From a virus: DNA of 37,717 nucleotides. The notes beneath the pieces were generated by a model that did no database searches, had not been told where the DNA came from, and saw nothing but the letters and a program-made list of their open reading frames with translations. The stretch lies in IMG/VR virus record IMGVR_UViG_3300034375_007853, positions 1-37,717 of that record; one strand, given 5' to 3'. Shown here in pieces: positions 16,067-37,312 of this stretch (position 1 is the first letter of the stretch; each line of letters begins with the position of its first letter). The position numbers and the translations under genes are program-made.

Positions 16067-16660
16067 ATGAGGTATTTAATTTCACTATTATTAGGTTCAT
16101 CTATAACCTTTTCATTATTCTTTATCATGACCATGCTTATTGCAACTGGTCGTGGTGCTTTAACTGAAGCTTCATCATTTCGTATAACAGACTTTGTTAT
16201 GGTTGAGAGAAATGAAGTTGTTGAAACAAGAGAAAGAAAACCAGAAAGACCTCCAGAACCAGAACTTCCACCAGAAATACCAGAAGCTTCACAAGCAGAT
16301 AGTTTTGATAACACTATGACAGTATCAATGTCTGCTCCTACAGTAAATGCTGGATTTCAAGTTGGTGGAGTTGGATTTGGTGTCAGTGATGGAGAATACT
16401 TACCAATTGTAAAAGTAGCACCTGTATATCCTGCTCGAGCATTACGTATGGGTGTCGAAGGATACTGTGTTGTTGAATTTACAGTGATGCCAAATGGTTC
16501 TACAAGAGATGCATTTGCCGCTGAATGTTCTAATTCAGTATTTGAGAGAGCATCTGTTGAAGCTGCATTAAAGTTTAAATATAAACCAAGAGTTATTGAT
16601 GGTGTAGCCATTGAAGTTCCTGGTGTATTAAATAGGATAACATTTGAGTTAGCAGAGTAA
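16067..16660 (+). CDS. tonB: TonB-like protein
   Basis: 197 aa. An N-terminal inner-membrane helix (residues about 5-27), a Glu/Pro-rich periplasmic linker (KPERPPEPELPPEIPE, about 58-73), and a C-terminal TonB domain (about 108-197). The last contains VAPVYPARALRMGVEGY, VVEFTVMPNGS, FERASVEAALKFKYKP and a final RITFEL. All parts of a cellular TonB are present in order. TonB couples the inner-membrane ion gradient, through ExbB/ExbD, to outer-membrane transporters. No ExbB/ExbD homologue is evident, so it would need host partners. Late timing makes nutrient uptake a less obvious role than contact with the outer membrane during lysis or curli-type secretion. That role is speculation. Confidence 0.88.
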   Translation: MRYLISLLLGSSITFSLFFIMTMLIATGRGALTEASSFRITDFVMVERNEVVETRERKPERPPEPELPPEIPEASQADSFDNTMTVSMSAPTVNAGFQVGGVGFGVSDGEYLPIVKVAPVYPARALRMGVEGYCVVEFTVMPNGSTRDAFAAECSNSVFERASVEAALKFKYKPRVIDGVAIEVPGVLNRITFELAE

Positions 16661-16661
16661 T

Positions 16662-16955
16662 ATGGATTTTTTGGCATTAGTTGGTGAGTTAGGTGCTCCT
16701 ATAGCAGGTTCTTTGGTAATGGGATTCTTTATATTCTTAGTTATAAAACAAATTCTAGAAGGTATAGTCGACCAAGTTAAAACGTTAACGATATTCTGTA
16801 AGTCATTAGAGAATAGAGCTCGTACTATGTCCAATGAAATGATTAAGATCGATATGTTAGTCTCATCTGCTTTGGAATTAAGACCTGATATTGAAAGAGT
16901 AGCAAGAGCAGAAAACTTTATAGAGGATGGAAAAGTAGATGCAAGACGTGACTAA
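16662..16955 (+). CDS. Single-helix membrane protein with coiled coil
   Basis: 97 aa. A hydrophobic helix at residues about 10-32 (PIAGSLVMGFFIFLVIKQIL) is followed by a heptad-like helical tail. Topology and sequence resemble the 96 aa protein two genes downstream (17017-17307), so the two are likely paralogues. Short membrane-plus-coiled-coil proteins of this kind can be holins or spanin/BhlA-like proteins. The gene begins 2 nt after the TonB-like gene and overlaps the 25-residue gene that follows. Confidence 0.6.
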   Translation: MDFLALVGELGAPIAGSLVMGFFIFLVIKQILEGIVDQVKTLTIFCKSLENRARTMSNEMIKIDMLVSSALELRPDIERVARAENFIEDGKVDARRD

Positions 16956-17016
16956 ACAATTAATCCCTTGGTTTGTAGCAGCTTTTATTTGTTTTATTTT
17001 TATATGGATAGCATAA
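16939..17016 (+). CDS. Mini transmembrane peptide
   Basis: 25 aa, almost entirely one hydrophobic helix (begins MQDVTKQLIPWFVAA). It overlaps the previous gene by 17 nt, and its stop codon directly abuts the next ATG. Its position between two paralogous membrane genes and the exact abutment argue that it is translated. A role as holin, pinholin or antiholin is possible but not shown. Confidence 0.45.
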   Translation: MQDVTKQLIPWFVAAFICFIFIWIA

Positions 17017-17307
17017 ATGGAAGGTGATATTGTACAATTAATCAGTGAGTATGGATTTCCAGTTATTATGGCAACTGGTATGGGTTACTTTATTTACTTT
17101 ATATGGAACTTCATTGGTGAACATATAGATCCAGCTTTACAAGAACAGCATATGGCACTGATTCGTGTTATAGATCAAGTGCGTATGTTAGACCAAGATC
17201 TAATACGATTACAGCAAAAAGTAGACGTTGTATTAGAATATAGAGAACAAGAAAAGATGAGGAAAGAAGGTGAAATTTCAAGTCGGGGACAAAATAAGAA
17301 AGCCTAA
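17017..17307 (+). CDS. Single-helix membrane protein with coiled coil (paralogue)
   Basis: 96 aa. A short N-terminal segment, a hydrophobic helix (residues about 14-34, VIMATGMGYFIYFIWNFIG), and a long amphipathic helix rich in Gln, Leu, Asp and Arg. It has the same layout as 16662-16955, including the 'ELGAP/EYGFP' turn before the helix. It overlaps the next gene by 38 nt. The holin-like size and late operon suggest a membrane or lysis role. Confidence 0.6.
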   Translation: MEGDIVQLISEYGFPVIMATGMGYFIYFIWNFIGEHIDPALQEQHMALIRVIDQVRMLDQDLIRLQQKVDVVLEYREQEKMRKEGEISSRGQNKKA

Positions 17308-17467
17308 AGGCTATGCATTTGACGGAACAATCGTATCCGTTTTTCAAAACACAAAAGGTGATATTAGGATCGTTGCTGAGCTAGACGGAAACGGAATGCT
17401 TCATATATTTTCTGAATCACAGCTAGAGCATAGAGACAACCCACAGCAAATAGATATTCAGTTTTAA
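17270..17467 (+). CDS. Small KOW/SH3-like protein
   Basis: 65 aa. FQVGDKIRKPKGYAFDGTIVSVF and GMLHIFSESQLE resemble a widespread small family in alphaproteobacteria and their phages with a KOW/SH3-like beta barrel. The start is GTG at 17270 with AGGAAAG upstream. Its 3' end lies over the convergent minus-strand ORF at 17364-17555. Function unknown. Confidence 0.65.
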   Translation: MKFQVGDKIRKPKGYAFDGTIVSVFQNTKGDIRIVAELDGNGMLHIFSESQLEHRDNPQQIDIQF

Positions 17468-17555
17468 CGCTCATCTCCTCGCCAAAATTTCCAAACATCC
17501 AATAGATGAATATTCCTAAAGGATAAGCAGCAAACAACATAAAGAAGTATTTCAA
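17364..17555 (-). CDS. Possible two-helix membrane protein (TTG start)
   Basis: 63 aa if started at TTG 17555, just after the cyclase stop. Two hydrophobic helices (YFFMLFAAYPLGIFIYWMFG and YLFAVGCLYALAVI) are joined by a short charged loop, a class II holin-like topology. A longer in-frame form from ATG 17633 would start inside the cyclase gene. It overlaps the convergent plus-strand gene by 104 nt, which weakens the case. TTG is used elsewhere here (15175), and AAGG lies upstream. Confidence 0.42.
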   Translation of the reverse strand: MKYFFMLFAAYPLGIFIYWMFGNFGEEMSVKTEYLFAVGCLYALAVIQKIYEAFRFRLAQQRS

Positions 17556-17565
17556 AACGTAAACC

Positions 17566-19635
17566 TTACTTAGTTGTTGCAATAAATGTTCCGTCCCAAT
17601 CTTCTGGTAGATCTTGTGTCTTTTGAAATTCACATCGTTCGATCCACATAGAATAATATCCTCTCATCTGTTGATCGAATGCTGTCTCTAATTTCTTACA
17701 AAGAGCAATTGCTTCATCGAACTTCTGTGCTCTATATAACTCATGCATTTCTTCGTGAGCTACTTGAGCATCATACCATTCTTCCATTTTTTCTTGAGCA
17801 TCAAGTACTGTGTATATTCCTATACCAACTGACTTACCCTTTACAGCTAGGTCATCGACCTTAAGATAAAAGAAATCATCTTTTGTCTTTTGATATGTAG
17901 CATCACCGACTAGTAATAAGCAACCATATTCTTTACATTTAGATTCTATACGTGCTGCTGTCGATACTGAATCACCTAATACATCATAACTATGACGAGA
18001 TGTGGAACCCATCTCACCAAGATAACCTATACCTGTATTGATACCTGCTCCCATGCCAACTGGAGGACGACCTTGTCTTTTTACTTCAATGTTAAATTCT
18101 TCGACTGCTCTTAACATTTCAATACCTGTTTTTACAGCAGAGTAAGCATGATTAGGATCATCGTTTGGAGCGTTATGAACATGCATACTTGCATCACCAA
18201 TATACTTTATAATCATACCATCTGCATTTAATACTGGTTGTGTAATAGCATCCATATAACCATTCATAAGTTTTGTCAGACCTTGTACATCATCACCAAA
18301 TGATTCTCCTAATGGAGTAAAGCCACGTAAATCTGAGAATAGTATTGATATCTCTCTTTTAGTTCCTTTCTTAATAATGTCTGGATTCTCTTGTAACAAT
18401 TTAACAACTGTTGGTGAACAGTAACCTTCAAATTGTTTCTTAATTCTTTCTTTCTCTTTGTATGTTAAATAGTACTTATTAAATGAAGCATGTGCAAAGA
18501 CTAGTAGGGAAGAAATAGCAGAGTAAAATGTATCAAATAGAATAAGGTAATTATTCCAAAGATAGAATCCTGCGTATACTTGTCCCCCAACTAATACACC
18601 TACTCCTATTAAAGCAAACCTTGTCGGTGCTTTCCATGTAACAAATAAAACTTTAAGCATTGCTGATAATAAAACAACTAATGCTAATAAATCATACCAA
18701 TAAGATTTCTTAATGATTGTCTGATTTAAAACAGTTTGTAATAAGTTAGCTTGTACTTCATGTGGGAACATAGCACCAACGGGTGTTGATACTGGGTTAT
18801 TAAATCCTTCAGCTGTTAATCCCCAAATGTAAACCTTACCACCTAAATCTTCTGCAACTAAGTCTGATGCTGATACTCTTGGAAACTCATTCCAATAAGA
18901 TATCAATACGTCACCAGTAGGTGTAGTTGCAAGAGGCGGTTGTCTACCCATTCGTACCCATTCAACTCCGATATCAGGCGTAACTCTTAATTGATATGAT
19001 GTCTCATCAAAGAATGCTCTTATTGTTTCTAGTACTAATGACGGATATAGCTGATCATTTGCATTGACTAGAAGTGGAGCAGATCTTACAGTTGCATCAA
19101 AGTTTGGAGTACCTGGTAGGTTAGGAGTTGCATTTGTTACACCAACACCATAAGTGTTAGCTTGCAAAATCGGAAGAGGTGAAATTATGCCAGGAAAGTT
19201 CCAGACATAGTCAGCCGCTGCACCTCCTCCTAAAGTAGCAGTACCTACAAACGGTGCTAATCCTGTTTGAGTTTGTGTCGTAGGTGCTGCTGCTAGAATA
19301 GATAAACGATTAATCAGAGCTTCAGCGAATATTTCATCGCCTCCGAATCTATCTTCTTCTGAAAAGATTTGAGTAAATACATGAACGTTTGATGGATCTG
19401 TATTCCACATAAGTTCTGCATAAACATCACGTGGCCAAGGATATTGACCATATTGTTCTATTGCTTTCTCATCAATATCAACAAGTACAAAGTCTGGTAC
19501 TTGCTCTATTTCATGTGATTGGTGTAAGTAATCAAACCATGACCATTGTATGTTCTCAACAATGTATGGTGAAGATACTTTAAGACTAAAAAGTAGTATT
19601 ACTGTAACTAGTACTGTCTTCCAACTATACATCAT
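17566..19635 (-). CDS. CHASE2-domain adenylate/guanylate cyclase-like protein
   Basis: 689 aa. An N-terminal helix (about 7-22) precedes an extracytoplasmic CHASE2 sensor (about 28-305, starting FDYLHQS.. and PDFVLVDIDEKAI). Three transmembrane helices (about 315-385) and a class III cyclase domain (about 425-590) follow. Metal-binding D435 (ILFSDLRGF) and D481 (KYIGDASM) are present, as is the adenine-selecting pair K477 and D551 (YDVLGD). The transition-state Arg is R562, but the Asn expected four residues earlier is Ser558 (GDSVSTAARIE). It should therefore bind ATP, but catalysis may be weak. CHASE2 cyclases often pair with FecR-domain proteins in bacteria; a FecR protein is at 35191-36321. 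It overlaps the curlin-like gene by 4 nt and should be co-translated with it. Confidence 0.9.
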   Translation of the reverse strand: MMYSWKTVLVTVILLFSLKVSSPYIVENIQWSWFDYLHQSHEIEQVPDFVLVDIDEKAIEQYGQYPWPRDVYAELMWNTDPSNVHVFTQIFSEEDRFGGDEIFAEALINRLSILAAAPTTQTQTGLAPFVGTATLGGGAAADYVWNFPGIISPLPILQANTYGVGVTNATPNLPGTPNFDATVRSAPLLVNANDQLYPSLVLETIRAFFDETSYQLRVTPDIGVEWVRMGRQPPLATTPTGDVLISYWNEFPRVSASDLVAEDLGGKVYIWGLTAEGFNNPVSTPVGAMFPHEVQANLLQTVLNQTIIKKSYWYDLLALVVLLSAMLKVLFVTWKAPTRFALIGVGVLVGGQVYAGFYLWNNYLILFDTFYSAISSLLVFAHASFNKYYLTYKEKERIKKQFEGYCSPTVVKLLQENPDIIKKGTKREISILFSDLRGFTPLGESFGDDVQGLTKLMNGYMDAITQPVLNADGMIIKYIGDASMHVHNAPNDDPNHAYSAVKTGIEMLRAVEEFNIEVKRQGRPPVGMGAGINTGIGYLGEMGSTSRHSYDVLGDSVSTAARIESKCKEYGCLLLVGDATYQKTKDDFFYLKVDDLAVKGKSVGIGIYTVLDAQEKMEEWYDAQVAHEEMHELYRAQKFDEAIALCKKLETAFDQQMRGYYSMWIERCEFQKTQDLPEDWDGTFIATTK

Positions 19636-20330
19636 TGTCCTTGTGTTACTGATACACTACAACCACCTACAGTATAACAAGTCTGAGATAGTGAATATGA
19701 TTGTGATGTTGTTCCTTGTTGTGTTAAATTTAATGTTGTAGGGTCTGTACCTGAAAGTAAGATGCTTGCTGAATGCTGTGCCCAAGCACCTTTTTGTAAT
19801 ACTGATATATCGTTGTAGTCATTATTTGTTTGTAGACCTATTGTTTTTGCACCATCACCTTGCTGTCTTAACCATATATCATTATAACTACTAAAGATAA
19901 GACTTGTAAATGTATGACCACTAGTGCTTCCCTGATTTGTTTGATGACCTTGCAAATGATTATAATTTCCATGTATGTCTAATCTTGCATAATGTCCGCC
20001 ACCTTCATTACCATCGTCTCCGTATGTCGTAGATGTTGCATTATCCCATGCCGTTCCCTGGGCCCAACGAATAGTATTATCAGTTCCAGATAAATGCCAT
20101 AATTCAATTACGTTATTTGTTCCTGAGCTATTTTCTTGTATTAAAGTTAACTCAACATTATTACCAGAAACGTATGAACTAGTATCGTACATTTTAATTA
20201 TATTATAATCTCCTACCTGTACTACATTTAAATCAAAATAGTTTCCACTTGTTTGTTCGATAGTGATTTCGTTATCTTGTGCCAAAAGAAATGCTGGCAA
20301 TAGAAGTATTGCAAGTAATAGATGTTTCAT
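19632..20330 (-). CDS. Secreted curlin-like repeat protein
   Basis: 232 aa. A clear signal peptide (MKHLLLAILLLPAFLLAQ) is followed by DNEITIEQ and about 200 residues rich in Asn, Gln, Ser, Thr and Gly. Imperfect repeats of the type N-x-I-x-x-x-Q-x-G-x-x-N resemble curlin repeats of CsgA/CsgB. The C-terminus has a Cys pair (SQTCYTVGGCSVSV). The second curlin-like protein (34515-35222) also begins DNEIFIEQ after its signal and also carries two cysteines near its end, so the two are related. It is expressed from the late promoter at 20336-20343 and coupled to the cyclase gene. It is expected to be exported, possibly through the CsgG-like channel. Confidence 0.72.
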   Translation of the reverse strand: MKHLLLAILLLPAFLLAQDNEITIEQTSGNYFDLNVVQVGDYNIIKMYDTSSYVSGNNVELTLIQENSSGTNNVIELWHLSGTDNTIRWAQGTAWDNATSTTYGDDGNEGGGHYARLDIHGNYNHLQGHQTNQGSTSGHTFTSLIFSSYNDIWLRQQGDGAKTIGLQTNNDYNDISVLQKGAWAQHSASILLSGTDPTTLNLTQQGTTSQSYSLSQTCYTVGGCSVSVTQGQ

Positions 20331-20335
20331 GTATC

Positions 20336-20343
20336 TATTTATA
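20336..20343 (-). promoter_or_regulatory. Late promoter TATAAATA (minus strand)
   Basis: TATTTATA on the plus strand, read as TATAAATA on minus. It ends 5 nt before the ATG of the curlin-like gene at 20330 and overlaps the end of the acetyltransferase gene. No Shine-Dalgarno follows. The 12 bp TATTTATAAATA at 20336-20347 contains the box on both strands, but no plus-strand gene follows. Confidence 0.75.
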
Positions 20344-25113: not shown

Positions 25114-25461
25114 ATGGCAAAGAAATATACAAAGACACATGAATGGATCGAAGAAGGTAAAGATGGAAAATACTGGGTAGGTATTAGTCAAGTTGCTATT
25201 GAAATGTTAGGTGATGTTGTATATCTTGAAAAAGGTAAAGATGAAGACGATGTTGTAGGAGCAGGTGATGAAGTTATGGTTATTGAATCTGTAAAAGCAG
25301 CATCTGACATTTATGCACCAGTAAATGGTTCTATTCGAGAATTTAATGAAGATCTTATTGCAGAACCTAGTAGCATTACATCAAATGATTGGTTATTTAA
25401 GATGGAAATTGCAGATCCTTTCTTAAATGCTTTAGATGAACTAAGTGACGAAGAAATATGA
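25114..25461 (+). CDS. gcvH: Glycine cleavage system H protein
   Basis: 115 aa lipoyl-carrier protein of the glycine cleavage system. TKTHEWIEEGKDGKYWVGIS, LGDVVYLE, VIESVKAASDIYAPV and a final DWLFKMEI are in family order. The lipoylation site is K61 in ESVKAASD. It is slightly shorter than cellular GcvH (about 128 aa) but complete. P, T and L partners are not encoded nearby, so it must work with host proteins. Glycine cleavage makes methylene-tetrahydrofolate, the one-carbon donor used by gp42 two genes upstream. It overlaps the next gene by 4 nt. Confidence 0.93.
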   Translation: MAKKYTKTHEWIEEGKDGKYWVGISQVAIEMLGDVVYLEKGKDEDDVVGAGDEVMVIESVKAASDIYAPVNGSIREFNEDLIAEPSSITSNDWLFKMEIADPFLNALDELSDEEI

Positions 25462-25922: not shown

Positions 25923-27081
25923 AACAACTAAATACTACGATGAATTTCTGAGATACTATTCTCTTGCTTTAGAACAACAAAAGCTTTGTAATGTTTCTAG
26001 CGAAGAGCCTTATGGTATGGTTTCTCATATGGACTCAGGTATACCTGACGATCTTATGTGTAACGTTGAATTATATGATGTAGTTGAACGTAAGTATGCA
26101 GGATTTTCTCAGATAGTCAACGATGTATTTTATGGTTGGACTGATCAGCATCCATATTGGAAAAAGATGGAAGCTGGTAAGATCACAATGCAAAGAGAAG
26201 CAGTAGCAAAAGATTGGACAGGAAAACATAAAGACTTTGGTTTACCTGAATGGTTATACGTTTTTATATTACATAGGGTTACTGGTTCAGCCATCAATTA
26301 TGGTACTAAACCTTCAGGTTATTACAATACGCTTCTATTTAATTTACATAGAGCAAAAGATATCGAAGGAATGGTTGAGATTGTAAACAAACATCCTAAA
26401 CCATTCTATACTTCTATTGGTTATCAATTTCCTGCATTTCCAAAAATACCTGAAGGCAAACCATATAAAAGAGGCGGTGATTATTTCCTATCAGAGTATG
26501 CTCCAAAACTTGCAAGAGAAATGGCAGAATGGTTGGAAAGTGGAGGTAAAAGAGATTTACGAGAGATTGGTTCATTCATGTTAGATTGGAATGTAAATCA
26601 CGGATTAAGAAAGTATCAATTCCAATATGCAGCTGTAGTTGCAGATGTTGCTGATTGGTACCCACAATATGTTAACAGAGAATCAATGTTTTATTATGGT
26701 ACAAATGCAGTTGAGTGTATATCTTACCTCGCTAATCCTACCGAAAAAATAAAAAAAGAAATATTCCTTGATAAAGTTATGGAAAAAATATATGAAGACA
26801 CAGGTTCATATCCATATAATGCAGAAGATGTATGCTGTGACTTTATAAGATGGGTAGAAAATTATATTCGACCAGGAAATGATTATAATCATTTAAACTT
26901 TGATAAAGTATGGTCATCATGTAAAATTACAGATCATCCTTTTGGAAGACAGAAAGCAATGTTAGATATGGGAATAGTAAAAACCTTTAATGGTATTAAA
27001 AACCATCCATCAGATGATGCAATGTTAAAAGAAGCAGGTCTAACAGTAGAAGAGTATAAAAACAAATGCAAGCAGATATAG
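25912..27081 (+). CDS. aGPT-Pplase/AADT-like base-hypermodification protein
   Basis: 389 aa. LHRVTGSAINYG (near residue 110) and the C-terminal YPQYVNRESMFYYGTNAVECI resemble the alpha-glutamyl/putrescinyl-thymine pyrophosphorylase group, later described as amino acid:DNA transferases acting on activated hydroxymethyl bases. With gp42 upstream, the base is more likely hydroxymethylcytosine than hydroxymethyluracil. It shares its C-terminal pattern with the next protein and is probably its paralogue. Start ATG 25912 is my choice; ATG 25900 is equally in frame. It overlaps its neighbours by 11 and 16 nt. Confidence 0.5.
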   Translation: MSIKTTKYYDEFLRYYSLALEQQKLCNVSSEEPYGMVSHMDSGIPDDLMCNVELYDVVERKYAGFSQIVNDVFYGWTDQHPYWKKMEAGKITMQREAVAKDWTGKHKDFGLPEWLYVFILHRVTGSAINYGTKPSGYYNTLLFNLHRAKDIEGMVEIVNKHPKPFYTSIGYQFPAFPKIPEGKPYKRGGDYFLSEYAPKLAREMAEWLESGGKRDLREIGSFMLDWNVNHGLRKYQFQYAAVVADVADWYPQYVNRESMFYYGTNAVECISYLANPTEKIKKEIFLDKVMEKIYEDTGSYPYNAEDVCCDFIRWVENYIRPGNDYNHLNFDKVWSSCKITDHPFGRQKAMLDMGIVKTFNGIKNHPSDDAMLKEAGLTVEEYKNKCKQI

Positions 27082-28040
27082 CAGAATTTATCGATCAACC
27101 TTATGACAACATCGAGTATAAGAATACTTCGATTGTTGATATGAAAGGTAATAAGCCAAAAGAAAGTTGGATGAAAGATTGGACACAAGAACAACGATTC
27201 GAAAAATTCTTTGAGTTCTGTGATAAGTTTGATAAGAGAGAAGATAAGTTACTTAAAGAAGATTATCAAATCTTTTCTCATAGATTGCATTGGCATGAGC
27301 ATCCATTTTGTGAGAAGATGCAAGAAGTAAAAAGCAGTCGAGATAGATTATGGTATACACTTGTATTCTCTTTTACGAATGAACATTGGGGAACTCTTAC
27401 TAAATTAATGGAAGAAGGCGAAGATGCATGTAGAGAACACTTTTCTAAAAACAGGCATGCACGAAATGATTTATTCCAAATCTACTATCCAAAAGATACT
27501 GTAGTAAAAGAATGGTTATTAGAAGGACCGAAAAAAGCAGCAGATGCTTTACATCACACTCTTGAAAACGTAGATAGGCCGTATACGATGATGGAGTATT
27601 CAAAGATACTTGAAAAGTATTTTAAAAAGTATCAAGCTTTTCGAAGTCCTTTATACCCATGTAAAAATGCATCAAGATATTTGGCTATGTCATATCCTCA
27701 TATCGTAGATCCTGAATCAATACTATTTGGTGGAACTGGTCACTTCGATGGAATGCAACAAATATTTGGTGGAAAGAATTTAAATGGTAAAGTTAGATAT
27801 GATATTGATGAAAATGGTAAATTCGTTCCAAAGAATGCAAACGCAGAATTGTGGTTAGAACAGATGAACACACTTGTAAATCATCCAAAGAATCCAATGA
27901 CATCACAAAAATATTTAAATGTAGAAGATAAAACATGTTTCTTTTACAAACACATTGCAATCACTCATGGTGTAAAAAGTCCAACAAAAAGAATACCTTA
28001 CACATGGATATTTCCAAATAAATTTAGTTTAAAGAAATGA
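27066..28040 (+). CDS. Second aGPT-Pplase/AADT-like protein (paralogue)
   Basis: 324 aa. YPHIVDPESILFGGTGHFDGMQQIF aligns with YPQYVNRESMFYYGTNAVECISYL of the gene before it; PCKNASRYLAMS corresponds to its LRKYQFQYAAVV. Both also have a late cysteine-containing motif (EDKTCFFY against EDVCCDFI). A tandem divergent duplication or a two-subunit enzyme is likely. The annotated function rests on the neighbour and on operon context. It overlaps the next gene by 4 nt. Confidence 0.45.
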   Translation: MQADIAEFIDQPYDNIEYKNTSIVDMKGNKPKESWMKDWTQEQRFEKFFEFCDKFDKREDKLLKEDYQIFSHRLHWHEHPFCEKMQEVKSSRDRLWYTLVFSFTNEHWGTLTKLMEEGEDACREHFSKNRHARNDLFQIYYPKDTVVKEWLLEGPKKAADALHHTLENVDRPYTMMEYSKILEKYFKKYQAFRSPLYPCKNASRYLAMSYPHIVDPESILFGGTGHFDGMQQIFGGKNLNGKVRYDIDENGKFVPKNANAELWLEQMNTLVNHPKNPMTSQKYLNVEDKTCFFYKHIAITHGVKSPTKRIPYTWIFPNKFSLKK

Positions 28041-28993
28041 GAGTAATTACAAATCCAACGTATAACATACCTAAACTCAAAACATCTCATGTTTTAGGTT
28101 GGTCTCTTATTTGGTCAGATCAATTAAAAGCAGATATCGATAATAAATGCTCTGATAAAGTTTTACAATATGATGAAATCTTTATTGACCATGGTGTAAA
28201 CTTCAGCGGAGCTCTTAACTTATTTGGTGGTGCAAATAAACAAATATATGATAACATCAATCGTGTATTCTCTCATGCTAATGTTACTTCACTTGATTTT
28301 GATATGCCTGATCTTGGTGCACAATTAAAGTCAAGAGTAAAAGCACCTACCACCTATGAAGGAATAACTGAAGAGTGGTGTGATAAACTATCTGCAAGAT
28401 TAAAGAACGTTCCATCACTAAAACAACAAGAGTTAACTCATTTGTCAGGCGTATCTGTAGGTGATTCACATACATCTGCATTCTCTCGAAAAGATGATGT
28501 AGTACTTAGAACAAATGGTAAAACATTATTTGGCCAATTGAGAAGAGGATTAGAAGAGGATTTCAGAGGTATGACACCAAAAGGAGAAATCACATTCTGT
28601 TATGGTTCTATAGATATAAGACACCACTTATTAAGGCATGATGATAAGTTAGAAGAGCTGATTACAGAATATGTAAAACAAGGCGATAAATTTGGTGATG
28701 TAAAATATGCAGCTCCTGTTCCAGTTGAATACGAAGAAAGAAGATTGCCAAAAACTGGTTATTATAAAGGAACACCATTTTTTGGAACAAGAAAAGAGCG
28801 ATATGATTTAACAATGAGATTTATTGATTTACTAAATAAGAAATCAAACGGCAGAGTTGTAATGCCACCTGAAGATTGGTATTCAATGGATCCAGAAAAA
28901 TATGCTAAGACATATATGGAAAATGGTTCGAGTGTACACATAGCACCACCATATTATCGTAGAAACGATTGGGGAACAACATGTTTAATGTAA
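28037..28993 (+). CDS. SGNH/GDSL-like hydrolase or acyltransferase
   Basis: 318 aa. The block I motif is SVGDSHTSAF with S144 as nucleophile. A GSIDIRHH segment near residue 190 resembles the oxyanion-hole block, and D.......H in the C-terminal region (VHIAPPYY) could supply the rest of the triad. SGNH enzymes hydrolyse or transfer acyl groups. In this cluster it may tailor a substituent on a hypermodified base or sugar. Coupled by 4-nt and 13-nt overlaps to its neighbours. Confidence 0.55.
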   Translation: MRVITNPTYNIPKLKTSHVLGWSLIWSDQLKADIDNKCSDKVLQYDEIFIDHGVNFSGALNLFGGANKQIYDNINRVFSHANVTSLDFDMPDLGAQLKSRVKAPTTYEGITEEWCDKLSARLKNVPSLKQQELTHLSGVSVGDSHTSAFSRKDDVVLRTNGKTLFGQLRRGLEEDFRGMTPKGEITFCYGSIDIRHHLLRHDDKLEELITEYVKQGDKFGDVKYAAPVPVEYEERRLPKTGYYKGTPFFGTRKERYDLTMRFIDLLNKKSNGRVVMPPEDWYSMDPEKYAKTYMENGSSVHIAPPYYRRNDWGTTCLM

Positions 28994-29976
28994 CCACAGA
29001 TACAAGAAACAAAGACATACCAGGAAATATGACAAGAGCTGAAGCTCGTCAATTATACCTTGATATGTGGGGTACATTTAACACCAAATGTCCTCCTCCA
29101 GCAGTACAACACCTTGCTGGAGACAAATATGTGTTAAGAGCAGATTTAGCACCAGGTGGATTAAAAGCGTTTGGTGCAGAAAGAGTTATAGCAGAAACAA
29201 AAGAAGATACGCTTGTATATTGTGCGCCACGCCAAGGTCATGCCCCTGACGCCATAGCAATGTTAGCGGAAATGTATGACAAAAAAGTGGTCTTCTTTTG
29301 TCCTGCTAGCACAACAGTTTCAGATCATCAGGGTTCATTGTTTGCTTATGACCACGTTGATGTAAGATTTATAAAGATAGCAGCCATGCCAGTGTTAAAT
29401 GCTTATGCGAAAGAATGGGCAGAAAGAAACAATGCTAAGTACTTACCATTTGGATTGACTGGTGAAAAGACAGTTACTGCAGGTCTTATTAATATGGCCG
29501 TACATATTGAAAACTCACTTGGAAAACAACCATCACAAATATGGTGTGCAGTATCTACAGGTACAATGATTAGAGCTTTACAGATCGGATGGCCAAATGC
29601 TGAAGCGCATGGAATTGCAGTTGCACGTAACATACATCCAGGAGAAATCGGTGAAGCAAAAGTTATTTCAGCGACTGTACCATTTTTAAAAGCAGATCCT
29701 ATTGCAGAGACAATGCCATTTCCAACAACATCTGCTTATGATGCAAAAGCATGGAAAGGTTTTATAGAACAAGGAAAGAAAGATGCAATATTCATCAATG
29801 TTGGTTCAGACCAGCATATTAATCGAAACTTAGATAAAGTAAACGTCAATGAGATTAATAGTAAACGTGAATGGAAAGATATGGGAGATTTTTTAAAGAA
29901 TCGAGCATACGATAAAGATATTGAAGTAATTAAATTAGACTTAAAAAAGAAAGCTAGCTTAGAGGAGTTTTTATAA
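28981..29976 (+). CDS. PLP-dependent enzyme-like protein (fold type II)
   Basis: 331 aa. YVLRADLAPGGLKAFGAERVIAE, VYCAPRQGHAPDAIAMLAEM, KYLPFGLTGEKTVTAG and IWCAVSTGTMIRAL follow the order found in ACC deaminase/D-cysteine desulfhydrase-type enzymes (PLP lysine, SN-like region, glycine-rich phosphate loop). The likely Schiff-base lysine is in GGLKAFG. The glycine loop is degenerate (STGT). PLP enzymes occur in known thymine-hypermodification pathways, where they act on the attached amino acid. Start at ATG 28981, because an in-frame TTG at 28969 lacks support. Confidence 0.5.
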   Translation: MFNVTTDTRNKDIPGNMTRAEARQLYLDMWGTFNTKCPPPAVQHLAGDKYVLRADLAPGGLKAFGAERVIAETKEDTLVYCAPRQGHAPDAIAMLAEMYDKKVVFFCPASTTVSDHQGSLFAYDHVDVRFIKIAAMPVLNAYAKEWAERNNAKYLPFGLTGEKTVTAGLINMAVHIENSLGKQPSQIWCAVSTGTMIRALQIGWPNAEAHGIAVARNIHPGEIGEAKVISATVPFLKADPIAETMPFPTTSAYDAKAWKGFIEQGKKDAIFINVGSDQHINRNLDKVNVNEINSKREWKDMGDFLKNRAYDKDIEVIKLDLKKKASLEEFL

Positions 29977-30407
29977 TGTACAAATATAATGAAGGTGAAC
30001 TATTAAGACAACTACAAGAATATGTGGATAAAACTTATAATGAACATTATTCACAGAATCAATTTCAAGCCACAGAGTTTATTATAGATGGTGGTCATGG
30101 TGAAGGATTCTGTATAGGTAATATTTTAAAGTATGCACAACGATATGGAAAGAAAGAAGGTAAGAATCGAAAAGATCTTTTGAAAGTTTTACATTATGCT
30201 CTCATTGCTTTATATGTACATGATAAAGAGAACGGAGGAGTTAAAGATTATTTTTCACCACATAAAGCTATAGCGAAGGCGCACATTGATGATGCGTATG
30301 ATAGTAACTTAAGTCATACACGAAAACAAAAGGCACTTTATATGGACGATACAGATGAAGAGAAAGAAGCATATTATGCTGACGAATGGAATAAGCCAAT
30401 AGGATGA
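29976..30407 (+). CDS. DUF3310-like protein
   Basis: 143 aa. GFCIGNILKYAQRYGKK followed by KDLLKVLHYALIAL is the conserved core of phage DUF3310 proteins (GNaiKYi.R..kK....DL.Ka..Y). The remaining C-terminal 55 residues are charged. Function unknown. AGAGGAG precedes the start, which overlaps the stop of the PLP-enzyme gene. Confidence 0.7.
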   Translation: MYKYNEGELLRQLQEYVDKTYNEHYSQNQFQATEFIIDGGHGEGFCIGNILKYAQRYGKKEGKNRKDLLKVLHYALIALYVHDKENGGVKDYFSPHKAIAKAHIDDAYDSNLSHTRKQKALYMDDTDEEKEAYYADEWNKPIG

Positions 30408-30556
30408 TGTGGAGAATTTGGGCAAAAGCATTAGGTGATAAGACTGGCAAATCAAACAGAGAAGCTGATCTTATCGCTATAATAAGAACAATAATAGTGT
30501 TGGTTTACTTAAGTACTAACATTATGATTGTAATGGGTATAATTCATCATTGGTGA
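30404..30556 (+). CDS. Small membrane protein
   Basis: 50 aa. A charged N-terminal half (MMWRIWAKALGDKTGKSN) and one hydrophobic helix (IIRTIIVLVYLSTNIMIVMGI). It overlaps DUF3310 by 4 nt (ATGA). Not recognised. Confidence 0.5.
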   Translation: MMWRIWAKALGDKTGKSNREADLIAIIRTIIVLVYLSTNIMIVMGIIHHW

Positions 30557-30559
30557 TTT

Positions 30560-30727
30560 ATGATTTTAAAAAGACTATTAGATAATGATATGAAAAAGAA
30601 AGAAAATTTAGATGCGCTTGGCGTGGACATCGACTTAGATAATGTATGGAAAACAAAACACACAGCACTATTAATTGTTGTGGGTATTGTTTTGATTGTA
30701 TCAATTGCAGTAAGTGTGGTATCATGA
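30560..30727 (+). CDS. Small membrane protein
   Basis: 55 aa. A charged cytoplasmic part of about 33 residues (MILKRLLDNDMKKKENL..) and a C-terminal helix (LLIVVGIVLIVSIAVSVV). It starts 4 nt after the previous gene and overlaps the next by 4 nt. Confidence 0.5.
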   Translation: MILKRLLDNDMKKKENLDALGVDIDLDNVWKTKHTALLIVVGIVLIVSIAVSVVS

Positions 30728-30831
30728 GTAGATATGGTAAAGGCAAAGAACCACTCGGTCCTAAATGGGAAGCTGTAGTATTTTTTGCTATGGTTATTTA
30801 CTGTGGAATTGTACTTTATTTCTTAGCTTGA
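30724..30831 (+). CDS. Mini membrane protein
   Basis: 35 aa, starting MSRYGKGKEPLGPKWEA, then one hydrophobic helix. The start is ATG 30724 in the stop of the previous gene (ATGA). An in-frame ATG at 30646 would run through the whole previous gene and is less likely. Confidence 0.5.
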   Translation: MSRYGKGKEPLGPKWEAVVFFAMVIYCGIVLYFLA

Positions 30832-30839
30832 TATAAATA
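30832..30839 (+). promoter_or_regulatory. Late promoter TATAAATA
   Basis: Exact late box directly after the previous stop codon. It ends 7 nt before the ATG at 30847, and no Shine-Dalgarno is present. Confidence 0.65.
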
Positions 30840-30846
30840 CATTAAC

Positions 30847-30945
30847 ATGTTTATTTTAGGACAAATAGGAATGAAAGATGACCCGTACTCGGAAAATATC
30901 TCGTTGGTTGTTCAGAGCCTATCTTGTCTATTCAATAACGGCTGA
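30847..30945 (+). CDS. Possible mini-ORF behind a late promoter
   Basis: 32 aa, starting MFILGQIGMKDDPYSEN. It is the first ATG after the late promoter. It overlaps, in another frame, the more convincing 39 aa membrane ORF at 30878. It may be a short leader ORF or not translated. Confidence 0.3.
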   Translation: MFILGQIGMKDDPYSENISLVVQSLSCLFNNG

Positions 30946-30997
30946 CATACTTCTATTGCTTGGATTAATATATGGGGCATACTGGTTCTATTCTTGA
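30878..30997 (+). CDS. Small membrane protein
   Basis: 39 aa, basic N-terminus (MTRTRKISRWLFRAY) and one hydrophobic helix (ADILLLLGLIYGAYWF). AGGAATGAAAG lies upstream. It overlaps both the mini-ORF before it and the next gene by 26 nt. Confidence 0.45.
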   Translation: MTRTRKISRWLFRAYLVYSITADILLLLGLIYGAYWFYS

Positions 30998-31154
30998 TGA
31001 AAGAGAATCTCTAATTAAATATTGCGAAGGATTATACTTCGAATTATTTGGTACACACCATGATTTTAGTTCTTATACACAAGAGGAACTAAGAGAGAAT
31101 GCTTATATATTAGAAGAAGGAATTAGTGGTAGTCAGTATAACCAGGATCATTAA
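30972..31154 (+). CDS. Small acidic protein, unknown
   Basis: 60 aa, starting MGHTGSILDERESLI, soluble and acidic. The 3' end overlaps the convergent CoxS-like gene by 32 nt. Not recognised. Confidence 0.45.
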   Translation: MGHTGSILDERESLIKYCEGLYFELFGTHHDFSSYTQEELRENAYILEEGISGSQYNQDH

Positions 31155-31614
31155 ATCTTATTCTTTTAGCGGCTAATTCAATAGCTTCAATAATCTTTGT
31201 GTAACCTGTACATCTACATAAATTACCTGCTAAATGGTTTCTTATTTCTCCTCGTGTAGGATAAGGATTATCATCTAGTAATTTCTTTGCCATCATCAAC
31301 ATACCTGTACCACAGAAGCCACATTGTAAAGAACCTAATTCTTCGAAAGCTTCTTGTAATGGGTGTAATTGATGATTATTTGCCAGACCTTCGATCGTCT
31401 GTACTTCTGAACCGTTAGCTTTGACTGCTAACATAATACATGAGTTAACTACTTCACCGTCGACTATAACCGTACAGGTACCGCAGTCTCCCACGTCGCA
31501 TCCCAACTTGGCACCAGTGAGGTCTAAATATTCTCTTAGAAATTTTAAGAGCGTAGTCTCTGGTGGCACGTCGGCAGAACGTTTCTGTCCATTTACCCGA
31601 ATTTCTACCTGCAT
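31123..31614 (-). CDS. 2Fe-2S iron-sulfur protein, CoxS/xanthine dehydrogenase small-subunit type
   Basis: 163 aa, full family length. The plant-type ferredoxin domain binds one cluster through C39, C44, C47 and C59 (GCDVGDCGTC...NSC). The C-terminal helical domain binds the second through C98, C101, C133 and C135 (LQCGFCGTGM and NLCRCTGYTK). All eight ligands are present. In cells this subunit passes electrons from a molybdenum-cofactor large subunit (CO, xanthine, aldehyde or nicotinate dehydrogenases) to a flavoprotein. Neither partner is in the window. The start codon overlaps the stop of the upstream methyltransferase (TAATG), so it belongs to a late phage operon. Its base composition looks somewhat more GC-rich than its surroundings. 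Confidence 0.93.
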   Translation of the reverse strand: MQVEIRVNGQKRSADVPPETTLLKFLREYLDLTGAKLGCDVGDCGTCTVIVDGEVVNSCIMLAVKANGSEVQTIEGLANNHQLHPLQEAFEELGSLQCGFCGTGMLMMAKKLLDDNPYPTRGEIRNHLAGNLCRCTGYTKIIEAIELAAKRIRFNDPGYTDYH

Positions 31615-32243
31615 TAATCAGAAGCAACGACCATGGCAAAAGGTTTCATTTTTCCTGAACATGTAGTTAAAGAAGTTTGAATGCCTGAGCCATCGACGTT
31701 TTTAAATAAAGGCTTAATGAAATTAACAAATTCAGCATGCGATCTCCAACGGTTTTGTAATGGGTGGTGGTCTTCGTAGATATGATCAGGTCGACCAACT
31801 CTACTTGTAAAAATCCATTTCTTTGCAAACTGTTTATAGTGATTTATCATACGAACAGGATCTTTAATATATTCTAAAACTTCTACACATAGACCTACTT
31901 CCCATTGCTTTCTTTCTGCACTAGCTGGAAGTGGTTGTCCACCCTTTGCTCTGTACTGCCATAGATCAAGTAGATCAAAATCTAAATCATGTTGTAACAT
32001 ACATTTTTTATTGAGATCTATTGAAAAATAGTCTTCGTTATGTTTAGCATATTTTTTAATAAATTCGTTTCCAGCACCAAGATCAAGCATTGAACAATTA
32101 TGAGGAATCTTAGTAGTAATCGTATCGTATATTTCACCCCATCGTGCAGACTCTTTCCACTGTTCTGGAAAAAAATGTTCTTTAAAAGCTCTAGAGCATA
32201 ATCTTATTACATTTTGAGGAACATACGTTGGTGAGTATGACAT
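31614..32243 (-). CDS. SAM-dependent methyltransferase-like protein (paralogue B)
   Basis: 209 aa. Motif I is CSMLDLGAGNEFI, followed by YFSIDLNKK (acidic end of strand 2) and a VGLCVEVLEYIKDP segment of Methyltransf_11 type. It shares WEVGLCVEVLEYIKDPVRMI.HYKQFAKKWIFTSR with the equivalent part of the next protein upstream in the operon, so the two are paralogues. A good AGGAG lies before the ATG. Substrate unknown; sugars, lipids or virion proteins are possible. Confidence 0.68.
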   Translation of the reverse strand: MSYSPTYVPQNVIRLCSRAFKEHFFPEQWKESARWGEIYDTITTKIPHNCSMLDLGAGNEFIKKYAKHNEDYFSIDLNKKCMLQHDLDFDLLDLWQYRAKGGQPLPASAERKQWEVGLCVEVLEYIKDPVRMINHYKQFAKKWIFTSRVGRPDHIYEDHHPLQNRWRSHAEFVNFIKPLFKNVDGSGIQTSLTTCSGKMKPFAMVVASD

Positions 32244-32253
32244 AATTTATCTC

Positions 32254-32901
32254 CTATGGTGTACAAACACCAATCAAAAATGGTTTTGGAAATCCTGTTC
32301 CATAAGTTACAATATCTGTAAAGATTACATCACTTACAGTTACGCTTGTAAAATGCTCATTTAAGAATACTATCCATTCGTCTCTTGTCCAACCATTTTT
32401 AAAAGTCAGTCGACTTTCTCTGAAAGCTATGTTTTCTTCAGTTATAGGTCTAATTGTTAAAACCCAATTTGTTGCATACTGTTTATAATGATCTAATAAT
32501 CTACCTGGATCTTCAATGAATTGAAGTACTTCTACAAGAAGACCAATATCCCACGTCCTATCAAAAGTAAGAAGAGATCCATCTAAATCGTGAACCTCAT
32601 CTGCTGCAGGATTTACGTCAACACCATGATAATCAGTACAAGTAATTGCATTGAGTATATCTTTGTCTCCACAACCTAAGTCAAGTATTGATGAACCACT
32701 TGGAACATAATCTGCAACATCAGTGTGAATTGCTCTCCATCTATCTTTGATGCTATGCATGCTAGCTAGTTTTGATTTATAATCGGAATCTACAGAACTT
32801 GCTGTCCAATCTTTTGATAGTATATTGTTATCACTATCAAGTGTTAAACCGTTTGCTCTTATAGTTTCAAATTCTGTAGTGAATGTAGATTTATCTGTCA
32901 T
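32254..32901 (-). CDS. SAM-dependent methyltransferase-like protein (paralogue A)
   Basis: 215 aa. Motif I is SILDLGCGDKDIL, then YHGVDVNPAADEVHD, then WDIGLLVEVLQFIEDPGRLL. It heads the minus-strand late operon methyltransferase A - methyltransferase B - CoxS. The TATAAATA late promoter ends 7 nt upstream, without a Shine-Dalgarno. Confidence 0.68.
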   Translation of the reverse strand: MTDKSTFTTEFETIRANGLTLDSDNNILSKDWTASSVDSDYKSKLASMHSIKDRWRAIHTDVADYVPSGSSILDLGCGDKDILNAITCTDYHGVDVNPAADEVHDLDGSLLTFDRTWDIGLLVEVLQFIEDPGRLLDHYKQYATNWVLTIRPITEENIAFRESRLTFKNGWTRDEWIVFLNEHFTSVTVSDVIFTDIVTYGTGFPKPFLIGVCTP

Positions 32902-32908
32902 AATAATT

Positions 32909-32916
32909 TATTTATA
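32909..32916 (-). promoter_or_regulatory. Late promoter TATAAATA (minus strand)
   Basis: TATTTATA on the plus strand. It drives the methyltransferase-CoxS operon, whose ATG is at 32901. It is divergent from the csg late promoter 32 nt away. Confidence 0.75.
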
Positions 32917-32948
32917 CAAATCAAATCTTTGTTTTAAACCATTTTACA

Positions 32949-32956
32949 TATAAATA
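32949..32956 (+). promoter_or_regulatory. Late promoter TATAAATA of the csg operon
   Basis: Exact late box 24 nt before the csgF-like ATG at 32981. It is followed by GGAG at 32971-32974, so this transcript has a normal short leader, unlike most late genes here. Confidence 0.78.
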
Positions 32957-32980
32957 GTTAAAAGCAATATGGAGTAGATT

Positions 32981-33466
32981 ATGCGCTTTGCACTTATACT
33001 AATGTTAGTATGCAATGTGGCGTTGGCAGATACAATTACGTTTGGATTTAAGAATCCATCGTTCAGTGGTGTTGGTCAAGGTTCACACTATCTTACTGTA
33101 GAAAATCAAGAATCATCAAGAGAAAAAGCAATTCAAGATGCACTTGATGCTGCAGAACGAGCAGCACAAAGAGAAGAGGATAACTCAACTCTTGCTAAGT
33201 TTATTCGTAACCTTGAGTCAAGAATTTATGCTCAGTTATCAAAGACTTTAGTCGAGCAAATGTTTGCAAACGAGGATCCAGTATTGTTTGGTAGTTTCGT
33301 ATTAGAAGGTTCAACTGTCTCATACGAAGTAGTTACAAATGACGACTTAACCCAGTCAATTGTTCTGATCATAGTAGATCCTGAGGGTTCACAAACTTCA
33401 ATTGAGATTCCTATTGGTACGGGTAACTTTGGTATGACATACGACGCAATTAATGGAGCACCCTAA
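32981..33466 (+). CDS. csgF: Curli assembly protein CsgF-like
   Basis: 161 aa. A signal peptide (MRFALILMLVCNVALAD) is followed by the CsgF N-terminal signature TITFGFKNPSFSGVGQGSH. In E. coli this segment (TMTFQFRNPNFGGNP) inserts into the CsgG channel. The remainder is an alanine/glutamate-rich helix and a C-terminal beta domain (QTSIEIPIGT...), again CsgF-like. CsgF caps the CsgG pore and links it to curlin nucleation at the cell surface. First gene of the plus-strand operon; its stop overlaps the next start (TAATG). Confidence 0.9.
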   Translation: MRFALILMLVCNVALADTITFGFKNPSFSGVGQGSHYLTVENQESSREKAIQDALDAAERAAQREEDNSTLAKFIRNLESRIYAQLSKTLVEQMFANEDPVLFGSFVLEGSTVSYEVVTNDDLTQSIVLIIVDPEGSQTSIEIPIGTGNFGMTYDAINGAP

Positions 33467-33648
33467 TGGCAATTAAACTTGGAGAATCAGTAAGAGAACG
33501 AGGTAAAAGATTTTTATGGAAACATGATTATCTTAAAACACATTCAACAAAATCTTTACTTGAGAAATATGAATCATTAAATACGATACCAAAGGTGAAA
33601 CAAAAAGTAAGGAATGAACTAGTACGGAGACATGCGTTATCTACTTAG
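33466..33648 (+). CDS. Small basic protein between csgF and csgG
   Basis: 60 aa, strongly basic, helical, no signal or membrane helix (MAIKLGESVRERGKRFLW ...). GGAG precedes the ATG. It overlaps both csg genes, by 1 and 17 nt. Function unknown; cytoplasmic location is expected. Confidence 0.6.
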   Translation: MAIKLGESVRERGKRFLWKHDYLKTHSTKSLLEKYESLNTIPKVKQKVRNELVRRHALST

Positions 33649-34531
33649 TACAGTAGTATTATTTCTTGTAGGATGTTCTGGAATACCTCAATATACTGAA
33701 ACACCTCTTGACTGTGATCCTTATATCGAAAGAGAAAGAACTCTTGGAGAAGCAATTACATCGATACCGAATGCGGTAAGATCGACACTTCCTCTTGTGT
33801 GTAACGATGAGCCAGAGATTATAGAACTTCCATCGTATGTACAGCTACTCAATCTACCACCAGCAGAACAAATGCCTATCGTTGCTGTTTATAGCTTTAC
33901 AGATCAAACAGGACAAAGAAGATCTGTAGAAAATATTGCATCATTCTCTACAGCAGTAACTCAAGGTGGTACAGCATTATTAATTGATGCTTTAAAATCA
34001 GCTGGAGGAGGTAGCTGGTTTCGAGTTGTAGAGAGACAAGGATTAGATAATCTTGTACGAGAAAGACAGATTATAAGAAGTACAAGAGAAGAGTATGCAG
34101 GTGTCAATTCAGAAGCGCTAAACCCACTTTTATTTGCAGGAATGATTATTGAAGGTGGTATTATTGGATATGACACAAATATTGAAACAGGAGGACGTGG
34201 TGCACGTACTCTTGGAATTGGCGTCAGTACAGAATATCGTAAAGACGTCGTTACGATTTCACTTAGAGCCGTGTCGGTTCTAACTGGAGAGATTATATTA
34301 AACGTCCAATCCCGAAAAACTGTATTCTCATTCGGAGGAGGCGGTGATTTGTTCCGATTCATTGAAGATGGAACACAACTATTAGAGTATGAGGACGGAG
34401 TAGGTATGAATGAGCCAGTAACATATGCTGTTCGTACCGCAATAGAGGCCGCAGTATTGGCTCTTATTCGTCAAGGTGACCAAAGAGGATACTGGACTAT
34501 AACAGGAGAAAACAATGAAGAAAATATTTAG
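33632..34531 (+). CDS. csgG: Curli secretion channel CsgG-like lipoprotein
   Basis: 299 aa outer-membrane lipoprotein pore of the type VIII (curli) secretion system. Lipobox LFLVGC with lipidated C15. Family blocks are LLNLPPAEQ, VAVYSFTDQTGQ, NIASFSTAVTQGGTALLIDAL, RVVERQGLDNLVRERQIIR, MIIEGGIIGYDTNIETGG, GARTLGIG, YRKDVVTISLRAVSVLTGEI and FRFIEDG. Compared with E. coli, F56 of the constriction is kept (F105) but N55 is replaced by Ser and the Y51 region differs. About 50 additional N-terminal residues with two cysteines precede the core. All strands of the barrel insert appear present, so a functional pore is expected. Confidence 0.93.
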   Translation: MRYLLSTVVLFLVGCSGIPQYTETPLDCDPYIERERTLGEAITSIPNAVRSTLPLVCNDEPEIIELPSYVQLLNLPPAEQMPIVAVYSFTDQTGQRRSVENIASFSTAVTQGGTALLIDALKSAGGGSWFRVVERQGLDNLVRERQIIRSTREEYAGVNSEALNPLLFAGMIIEGGIIGYDTNIETGGRGARTLGIGVSTEYRKDVVTISLRAVSVLTGEIILNVQSRKTVFSFGGGGDLFRFIEDGTQLLEYEDGVGMNEPVTYAVRTAIEAAVLALIRQGDQRGYWTITGENNEENI

Positions 34532-35222
34532 CGCGCTTATCTTCATGTTACTTTCTGTCTCAGTATTCGCTCAGTCTGATGACAATGAAATATTCATTGA
34601 ACAATCGGGTGATACACTAACTCTGTATATAGAACAAGATGGTGAAGGAAACAAAGTCGGAGGAAACGATTTCACTGGTACAGCGACCGATATGGTCATT
34701 ACTGGTGCAAATCTTACTTTTGATATCGATCAAATAGGTAATAACAACCTATTGTTTGGTACATTGACCTCAGCTTCCTCTACCTACAACCTTCTTTTTA
34801 CAGGTGACTCTAACAGCCTTGACTGGTTGATTGGAGACCTCGGCACAGCTGAGACTACTACTTTTGATTTAGACATCACAGGTAGTTCGAACACTATAGA
34901 TTTTGACCAAGGATCTGTTGCCAATGCAGATTATCTAGATTTAGATCTAGCTGTCATTGGTTCTTCAAACGTCTTTGATATAGACGTTGAAGGTACAAAC
35001 AGTATTTGGAACTTTGATATTACTGGAGGCAGTAGTAACATTAACACTGAACAATCTGATGGGTCTGACCACGAAATCAATCTGATTCTCGATGGCGACA
35101 CTGCAGATATTGATATTACACAGACAAATGGTACTTGTCCTGTAGCTGCAAGCTGCTCAAGTGTCGTGAATCTCGATGTAACTTCTGACAATGCAACAAT
35201 TCAGATACTTCAGGAAGACTAG
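34515..35222 (+). CDS. Secreted curlin-like repeat protein (second copy)
   Basis: 235 aa. Signal peptide MKKIFSALIFMLLSVSVFAQ, then SDDNEIFIEQSGDTLTLYIEQ. Imperfect strand-turn repeats rich in Asp, Ser, Thr, Asn and Gly follow, such as FDIDQIGNNN, LDITGSSNTIDFDQ and FDIDVEGTNS. The protein is more acidic than E. coli CsgA. Two Cys (CPVAASC) lie near the C-terminus, as in the minus-strand copy. It is placed directly behind csgG with AGGAG at its start, the classical position for a substrate of the secretion channel. Amyloid formation is plausible but unproven. Confidence 0.75.
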   Translation: MKKIFSALIFMLLSVSVFAQSDDNEIFIEQSGDTLTLYIEQDGEGNKVGGNDFTGTATDMVITGANLTFDIDQIGNNNLLFGTLTSASSTYNLLFTGDSNSLDWLIGDLGTAETTTFDLDITGSSNTIDFDQGSVANADYLDLDLAVIGSSNVFDIDVEGTNSIWNFDITGGSSNINTEQSDGSDHEINLILDGDTADIDITQTNGTCPVAASCSSVVNLDVTSDNATIQILQED

Positions 35223-36321: not shown

Positions 36322-36330
36322 GCTTACAGC

Positions 36331-36338
36331 TATAAATA
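36331..36338 (+). promoter_or_regulatory. Late promoter TATAAATA
   Basis: Exact late box, 9 nt after the FecR stop codon. It ends 5 nt before the ATG at 36344, and ACCCC between them is not a Shine-Dalgarno. Confidence 0.78.
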
Positions 36339-36343
36339 ACCCC

Positions 36344-37268: not shown

Positions 37269-37312
37269 GGTACCATAATTTGATAAACATGATGAATAAA
37301 GGAGTAAACAAT

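Follow-up and report, generated by a model that had tools for sequence, protein, structure and literature searches.

Do curli secretion genes and a gene for a CHASE2 nucleotidyl cyclase that lie in two separate operons of one phage genome still belong together? We addressed this question with a 37.7-kb fragment of a T4-like marine virus (IMG/VR record IMGVR_UViG_3300034375_007853, positions 1–37,717), the whole of which is called the window here. It encodes a family B polymerase, UvsX and a DnaB-type helicase; the closest relative of the polymerase is that of Phage C48C1 (54%), followed by those of cyanophages (45%). The initial annotation of the window described a second curlin-like gene (curlin 2) coupled to the cyclase gene, placed a FecR partner in a distant csg operon, and read both operons as one secretion-plus-signalling system not previously described in a phage. 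The claim of novelty was wrong and has been rejected: Wittmers et al. (2022; PMC9599517) reported a type VIII secretion system (T8SS) together with FecR, a second CsgA/B and an adenylate cyclase (AC) in pelagipodo- and pelagimyophages, and proposed a linked function. The same authors found the module expressed in the sea, transferred between virus families and kept in a conserved, colocated gene order. The csgF and csgG genes of pelagimyophages were described by Zaragoza-Solas et al. (2020; PMC7029224). In the ocean, this module of pelagiphages is very common.

A pelagiphage module broken into two operons

The window carries the same six genes as the reported pelagiphage module (CsgF, CsgG, two curlins, FecR and AC) and belongs to the same marine phage group. 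The homologous genes of the cultured phages HTVC008M (KC465899) and Melnitz (MZ577095) are contiguous in the order csgF-csgG-curlin1-fecR-curlin2-AC. This colocated order does not hold in the window, where curlin 2 and the cyclase form a separate minus-strand operon, about 12.7 kb from the plus-strand half at 32981–36321, which comprises CsgF, a 60-aa open reading frame (ORF), CsgG, curlin 1 and the FecR-domain protein. The annotated coupling of curlin 2 to the cyclase was borne out, as the two genes overlap by ATGA, and the fecR start indeed lies about 15.6 kb from the cyclase start. Because two further contigs are collinear with the window (L004 with positions 25516–7569 at 99.8% identity, L084 with positions 26333–37717 at 99.5% identity) and show the same layout, the arrangement is not an artefact of one contig, and we consider an assembly artefact unlikely. 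The module in the window is the pelagiphage T8SS-FecR-CHASE2 cyclase module broken into two opposite-strand operons. Among the loci examined, only the window arrangement places curlin 2 and AC on the other strand, at a distance of about 12.7 kb from csgF; this split and a chimeric cyclase (see below) are the unusual features of the window. Three other loci (L023, L041 and L025) show a second kind of module rearrangement: only the cyclase gene is inverted and lies immediately upstream of csgF, in divergent orientation, with curlin 2 still behind fecR.

Co-occurrence of the six genes in phages and their separation in cells

Loci for comparison were fetched from IMG/VR via the cyclase or CsgG. 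The exact order seen in the cultured phages recurs in 113 loci, and AC is present in all 30 csgG loci whose downstream sequence exceeds 6 kb, the pattern expected if cyclase, FecR, curlins and csgFG co-occur in relatives. Of the AC loci, two that extend more than 6 kb upstream (L221 and L223) are without csgG in the locus; L223 has csgG elsewhere on the contig, and the L221 contig ends at fecR, so that the upstream neighbour of fecR falls beyond the sequence. The phage collection holds six FecR records, all of them HTVC008M or Melnitz records, each with both CsgG and AC. With the six genes together in almost every relative, the view of the two operons as one secretion-plus-signalling unit is supported.

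The initial annotation also held that bacterial CHASE2 cyclases are paired with FecR proteins, which agrees with 26 of the 78 loci of cellular cyclase relatives, where a phage-type FecR is encoded no more than 10 kb away, and with two described systems, the Burkholderia BiofilmReg operon (PMC5192318) and Sinorhizobium meliloti CyaD1/D2/K with SMc02177 (PMC5498481). As in the phages, these combine FecR and a CHASE2 transmembrane sensor in one system. Unlike the phage module, neither is described with curli genes or a curlin-type FecR C-terminus, and the output of BiofilmReg is a histidine kinase rather than a cyclase. An S. meliloti cyclase with its CHASE2 deleted makes cAMP constitutively; therefore CHASE2 restrains that cyclase (PMC5498481). 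The curli system of E. coli (csgBAC/csgDEFG) shares CsgG, CsgF and curlin-repeat proteins with the window, in which no CsgC, CsgD or CsgE was found and to which FecR and the cyclase are added. Since no CsgG or curlin was present near the CHASE2-AC in any of the 78 cellular loci, and no FecR or cyclase within about 9 kb of csgFG in five alphaproteobacterial loci, FecR-CHASE2 and CsgFG-curlin appear to be separate units in the cells examined that were joined in phages, in agreement with Wittmers et al. We considered and rejected a derivation of the entire module from the curli operon of an alphaproteobacterium: among 385 genomes, the five from Alphaproteobacteria with phage-like CsgG had CsgF and mostly curlins, with no FecR or AC nearby.

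Two curlins of unequal character

The window curlin 1 falls short of the Pfam Curlin_rpt cut-off (PF07012; 17.8 bits for a cut-off of 20.7), which the Melnitz orthologues of the two curlins pass. The window curlin 2 has no PF07012 match of its own, so its description as curlin-like stands on other grounds: it is homologous to Melnitz curlin 2 (BLASTP 2e-13), the repeat of which passes the Pfam cut-off, and it contains eight strands of the hydrophobic-x-hydrophobic-x-Q type, compared with 1.8 expected. Homology to the orthologues and the excess of strands thus make curlin 2 a probable curlin, the weaker of the assignments. Its AlphaFold model (m360547cfe8bf) is all-beta, with a predicted local distance difference test score (pLDDT) of 85 and a predicted template modelling score (pTM) of 0.84. 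A C-terminal cysteine pair, annotated as common to both curlins, belongs to curlin 2 (116/131) and was never found at the C-terminus of curlin 1 (0/138); the two cysteines of the window curlin 1 are located away from it. Curlin 2 ranges in length from 163 to 506 aa, and in that of HTVC008M (L003:10638-11963) the curlin repeats follow a PA14 domain (E 2.7e-6); together, domain and length range suggest a variable adhesive cargo. According to the Melnitz paper (Buchholz et al.; PMC9004378), csgA and csgB are lacking, yet in the GenBank record of Melnitz (L002) two genes of that very operon are annotated as curlin-associated repeat proteins, together with a FecR protein and the cyclase.

A chimeric cyclase with a phage-specific active site

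The identity of the CHASE2 cyclase was confirmed, as both its CHASE2 domain (PF05226, E 2.3e-30, 106 bits for a cut-off of 26.3) and its Guanylate_cyc domain (E 2.9e-18) exceed the Pfam cut-offs. The metal-binding aspartates (D435, D481), the substrate lysine (K477) and the transition-state arginine (R562) are present, with D551 at the second substrate-specifying position and S558 in place of the transition-state asparagine. The 139 readable phage cyclases fall into two types. Type A (86, including the window and Melnitz) links the replacement of Ser/Thr by Asp with that of the catalytic Asn by Ser and keeps the metal aspartates, the lysine and the arginine; type B (53) has Ser at the substrate position and Asn at the transition-state position, and includes the HTVC008M cyclase with its canonical Asn active site and short C-terminus. 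Neither the Asp/Ser pair nor a replaced transition-state Asn occurred in any of 108 cellular homologues, made up of a set of 78 and of the 30 best-matching alphaproteobacterial sequences for the type-A catalytic domain.

Among type-A proteins, mean identity is 83% in the catalytic domain and 49% in CHASE2. The corresponding ratios of nonsynonymous to synonymous substitutions (dN/dS), obtained by an approximate method from pairs with dS <1.2, are 0.058 and 0.133. These estimates indicate strong purifying selection on the type-A catalytic domain, and the enzyme is therefore under selection. What these phages make with a cyclase whose transition-state residue has been replaced throughout a lineage of catalytic domains becomes a biochemical question.

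In the CHASE2 tree, the window cyclase is nested in a 34-member clade of type-B sequences (support 0.998), but in the catalytic-domain tree it belongs to the monophyletic type-A clade (support 0.994). Because its two domains fall in different clades, the window cyclase is, judged from the trees, a chimera, in which a type-B-clade CHASE2 is joined to a Melnitz-like type-A catalytic domain.

FecR as a candidate adaptor between curlin secretion and the cyclase

The phage FecR protein starts with a signal peptide, followed from about residue 30 by a FecR fold, and is without the cytoplasmic anti-sigma N-terminus and the transmembrane helix of FecR/PupR regulators. In its model (mean pLDDT 80, pTM 0.54), which matches the PupR signalling domain (6ovk, Foldseek E 2.8e-4), a partly disordered helical linker joins the FecR domain to a C-terminal beta domain that is well predicted (residues 321–375). 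A hydrophobic-x-hydrophobic-x-Q strand occurs within the last 14 residues of 136/137 FecR proteins, 130/133 curlin-1 and 96/128 curlin-2 proteins, compared with none of the CsgF, CsgG and AC proteins and 34 of 1750 unrelated ORFs. Only two of 28 cellular FecR proteins near CHASE2 cyclases end in this way, and one of these two comes from a phage contig within a metagenome-assembled genome.

We also analysed co-divergence over 87 dereplicated loci, as partial correlations beyond CsgF, CsgG and the other parts. Distances of the FecR domain follow those of CHASE2, with a partial r of 0.52 on the linear scale (bootstrap 0.42–0.59) and 0.23 by rank (0.12–0.33). The FecR C-terminus is not correlated with CHASE2 (0.05 linear, 0.00 rank) and instead follows curlin 1 (0.36–0.40). 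A partial Mantel test gave 0.45 against a null maximum of 0.13. In the usual gene order, the 3' end of fecR separates the FecR-domain sequence from that of CHASE2, so that simple linkage would predict the opposite pattern. We found no published description of the type-A active-site pair, the curlin-type FecR end or the co-divergence of the FecR parts.

We tentatively favour, at somewhat less than even chances, a model in which FecR is the adaptor from curlin secretion to the CHASE2 cyclase and the module is one functional unit, which would not need a single operon. Late in infection, CsgG and CsgF would form an outer-membrane pore exporting two curlin-type beta-rich proteins. A secreted or periplasmic FecR would dock on or cap a curlin through its C-terminal beta domain with the curlin-type strand, and its FecR domain would contact the CHASE2 sensor that the inner-membrane cyclase exposes to the periplasm. 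In this way, the state of curlin export or of the growing fibre would be reported across the inner membrane as a cyclic-nucleotide change, presumably read by host effectors, since no phage-encoded protein with a recognisable cyclic-nucleotide-binding domain was found in ten phage records. The main, indirect support for an adaptor role of FecR comes from the co-divergence pattern. The model is further favoured by the co-occurrence and order of the six genes, the retention of both unlinked halves in the window, the curlin-type end of FecR, its PupR-like fold without an anti-sigma part, the restraint of an S. meliloti cyclase by CHASE2 and the purifying selection on the type-A domain. If true, an adaptor with a curlin face and a CHASE2 face would explain why curli genes are accompanied by the cyclase and FecR in phages and not in bacteria, and it would reduce the problem to two small protein interfaces. 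A more specific version is rather doubtful: self-sensing amyloid secretion, in which the adaptor would couple fibre export to a cyclase whose phage-specific Asp/Ser catalytic domain has altered kinetics or nucleotide choice, so that secretion progress becomes a cyclic-nucleotide signal.

Several observations weigh against the adaptor model. AC or FecR is missing from some phage modules (PMC9599517), and Melnitz-infected cells showed no clumping (PMC9004378). The curlin-2 model has no significant match in the PDB, solved curli included. The terminal strand of FecR is short, and no full curlin repeat (Q.G..N) was found in that protein. Curlin 2, the repeats of which align poorly, showed no co-divergence with CHASE2 or FecR, and co-divergence as such can also stem from shared recombination tracts.

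Alternative explanations

Wittmers et al. (PMC9599517) drew on the CsgD/cAMP analogies of E. coli and saw in FecR and the cyclase iron- or cAMP-responsive regulators of curli gene expression, with the fibre as the only output, serving aggregation or "sibling capture". We regard this as unlikely, as the phage FecR carries a signal peptide and no cytoplasmic anti-sigma domain, ten phage records showed no cyclic-nucleotide-binding protein, parts of the module have T4-type late boxes, and Pelagibacter itself is reported without curli genes (PMC9599517). That no clumping was seen in culture speaks for another reading, put forward for Melnitz (PMC9004378) and pelagimyophages (PMC7029224), in which the CsgG/CsgF pore would time lysis or take up nutrients, the curlins would act as plug or gate, and FecR and the cyclase would sense the open pore. 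This also seems an improbable account, given that two curlin genes are kept, that the variable length of curlin 2 and the PA14 domain of HTVC008M fit a surface-exposed product better than a plug, and that the premise of a curlin-free Melnitz is at odds with its own record.

Curli export and the FecR-CHASE2 cyclase might instead be independent modules that hitch-hike as neighbours, in line with their separation in the alphaproteobacterial csgFG and cellular CHASE2-AC loci. However, both halves are kept where they are unlinked, as in the window, or rearranged, as in the three loci with an inverted cyclase gene; the phage FecR ends in a curlin-type strand; and its FecR domain co-diverges with CHASE2. 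We consider mere hitch-hiking quite improbable. The replacement of the catalytic Asn (position 558 in the window) by Ser in type A could mark the cyclase as a degenerate relic, but the other catalytic residues are retained and the catalytic domain is the most conserved part of the protein. Moreover, active cyclases without the asparagine exist, e.g., Rv1900c, so that this residue is not strictly required (PMC4886424). We rejected the relic on conservation and dN/dS and give it next to no credence. The adaptor model remains the one we prefer, with the reservations given above.

Late promoter boxes

The late promoter that the initial annotation assigned to the curlin-2 operon gains support from the spacing of its TATAAATA box and not from the box as such, which, with 10 copies in the window against 5.9 expected, is not a rare one. 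When the window and stretches of Melnitz (42 kb) and HTVC008M (34 kb) were counted together, 11 of 23 occurrences preceded the start ATG of an ORF by 4–7 nt (mode 5), compared with a mean of 0.55 over all letter permutations. Among the genes with this spacing are the window curlin 2 and csgF of HTVC008M, and each half of the split module is preceded by a box (Table 1). As a sequence pattern, the spacing supports late expression. The T4 late promoter box lies at -13 to -6. With this geometry, transcripts from boxes at 4–7 nt would start at the A of the AUG, which suggests leaderless late mRNAs in pelagimyophages and their relatives.

Table 1. Module genes and TATAAATA boxes in the window and in two cultured phages
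Feature	Position	Strand	Remarks
Curlin 2	20330-19632	minus	232 aa; signal peptide, curlin-like strands, C-terminal Cys pair, terminal strand VSVTQ
CHASE2 - transmembrane region - class III nucleotidyl cyclase	19635-17566	minus	689 aa; type-A catalytic domain
Small membrane-protein ORF	17364-17633	minus	overlaps cyclase end; likelier start TTG at 17555
Late promoter box TATAAATA	20336-20343	minus	T4-type; 5 nt before curlin-2 ATG; overlaps stop codon of upstream gene
TATAAATA box	32949-32956	plus	24 nt before csgF
CsgF	32981-33466	plus	PF10614, E 2e-13
CsgG outer-membrane pore	33632-34531	plus	PF03783, E 8e-52
Curlin 1	34515-35222	plus	PF07012 below cut-off
FecR-domain protein	35191-36321	plus	PF04773, E 4.7e-9; signal peptide, then FecR domain, helical linker and C-terminal beta domain with the curlin-type terminal strand FIQIIQ
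TATAAATA boxes 4–7 nt before starts, window	13555, 16054, 36331	plus	
TATAAATA boxes 4–7 nt before starts, window	20343, 21548, 32916	minus	
TATAAATA boxes 4–7 nt before starts, HTVC008M (L003)	6267, 7549, 31119	plus	
TATAAATA box 4–7 nt before start, HTVC008M (L003)	18929	minus	
TATAAATA box 4–7 nt before start, Melnitz (L002)	27434	minus	

Neighbouring genes

The small membrane-protein ORF at the cyclase end was seen only in the window and the near-identical contig L004 among the loci compared, and its membership in the module is uncertain. The 60-aa ORF between csgF and csgG (33466-33648, plus strand) has matches elsewhere in other loci, often directly 3' of the cyclase, and may be a small mobile gene.

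A protein with a TonB C-terminal domain (E 3.9e-14) is encoded at 16067-16660 on the plus strand, after a TATAAATA box, and is followed by two small membrane proteins (16662-16955 and 17017-17307). Except on L004, none of the genes in 16067-17307 has relatives on other module loci. FecR proteins normally signal with TonB-dependent receptors, and a link of the TonB-domain protein to the curli-cyclase module is therefore possible by analogy.

Elsewhere in the window, the minus-strand genes at 31123-31614 and 31614-32901 include one for a [2Fe-2S] protein (Fer2_2, E 1.5e-29) of the type found as small subunit of xanthine dehydrogenase, beside two paralogous methyltransferase-like genes, and a gene at 25114-25461 on the plus strand encodes a protein like the glycine cleavage H-protein (E 8.7e-25).

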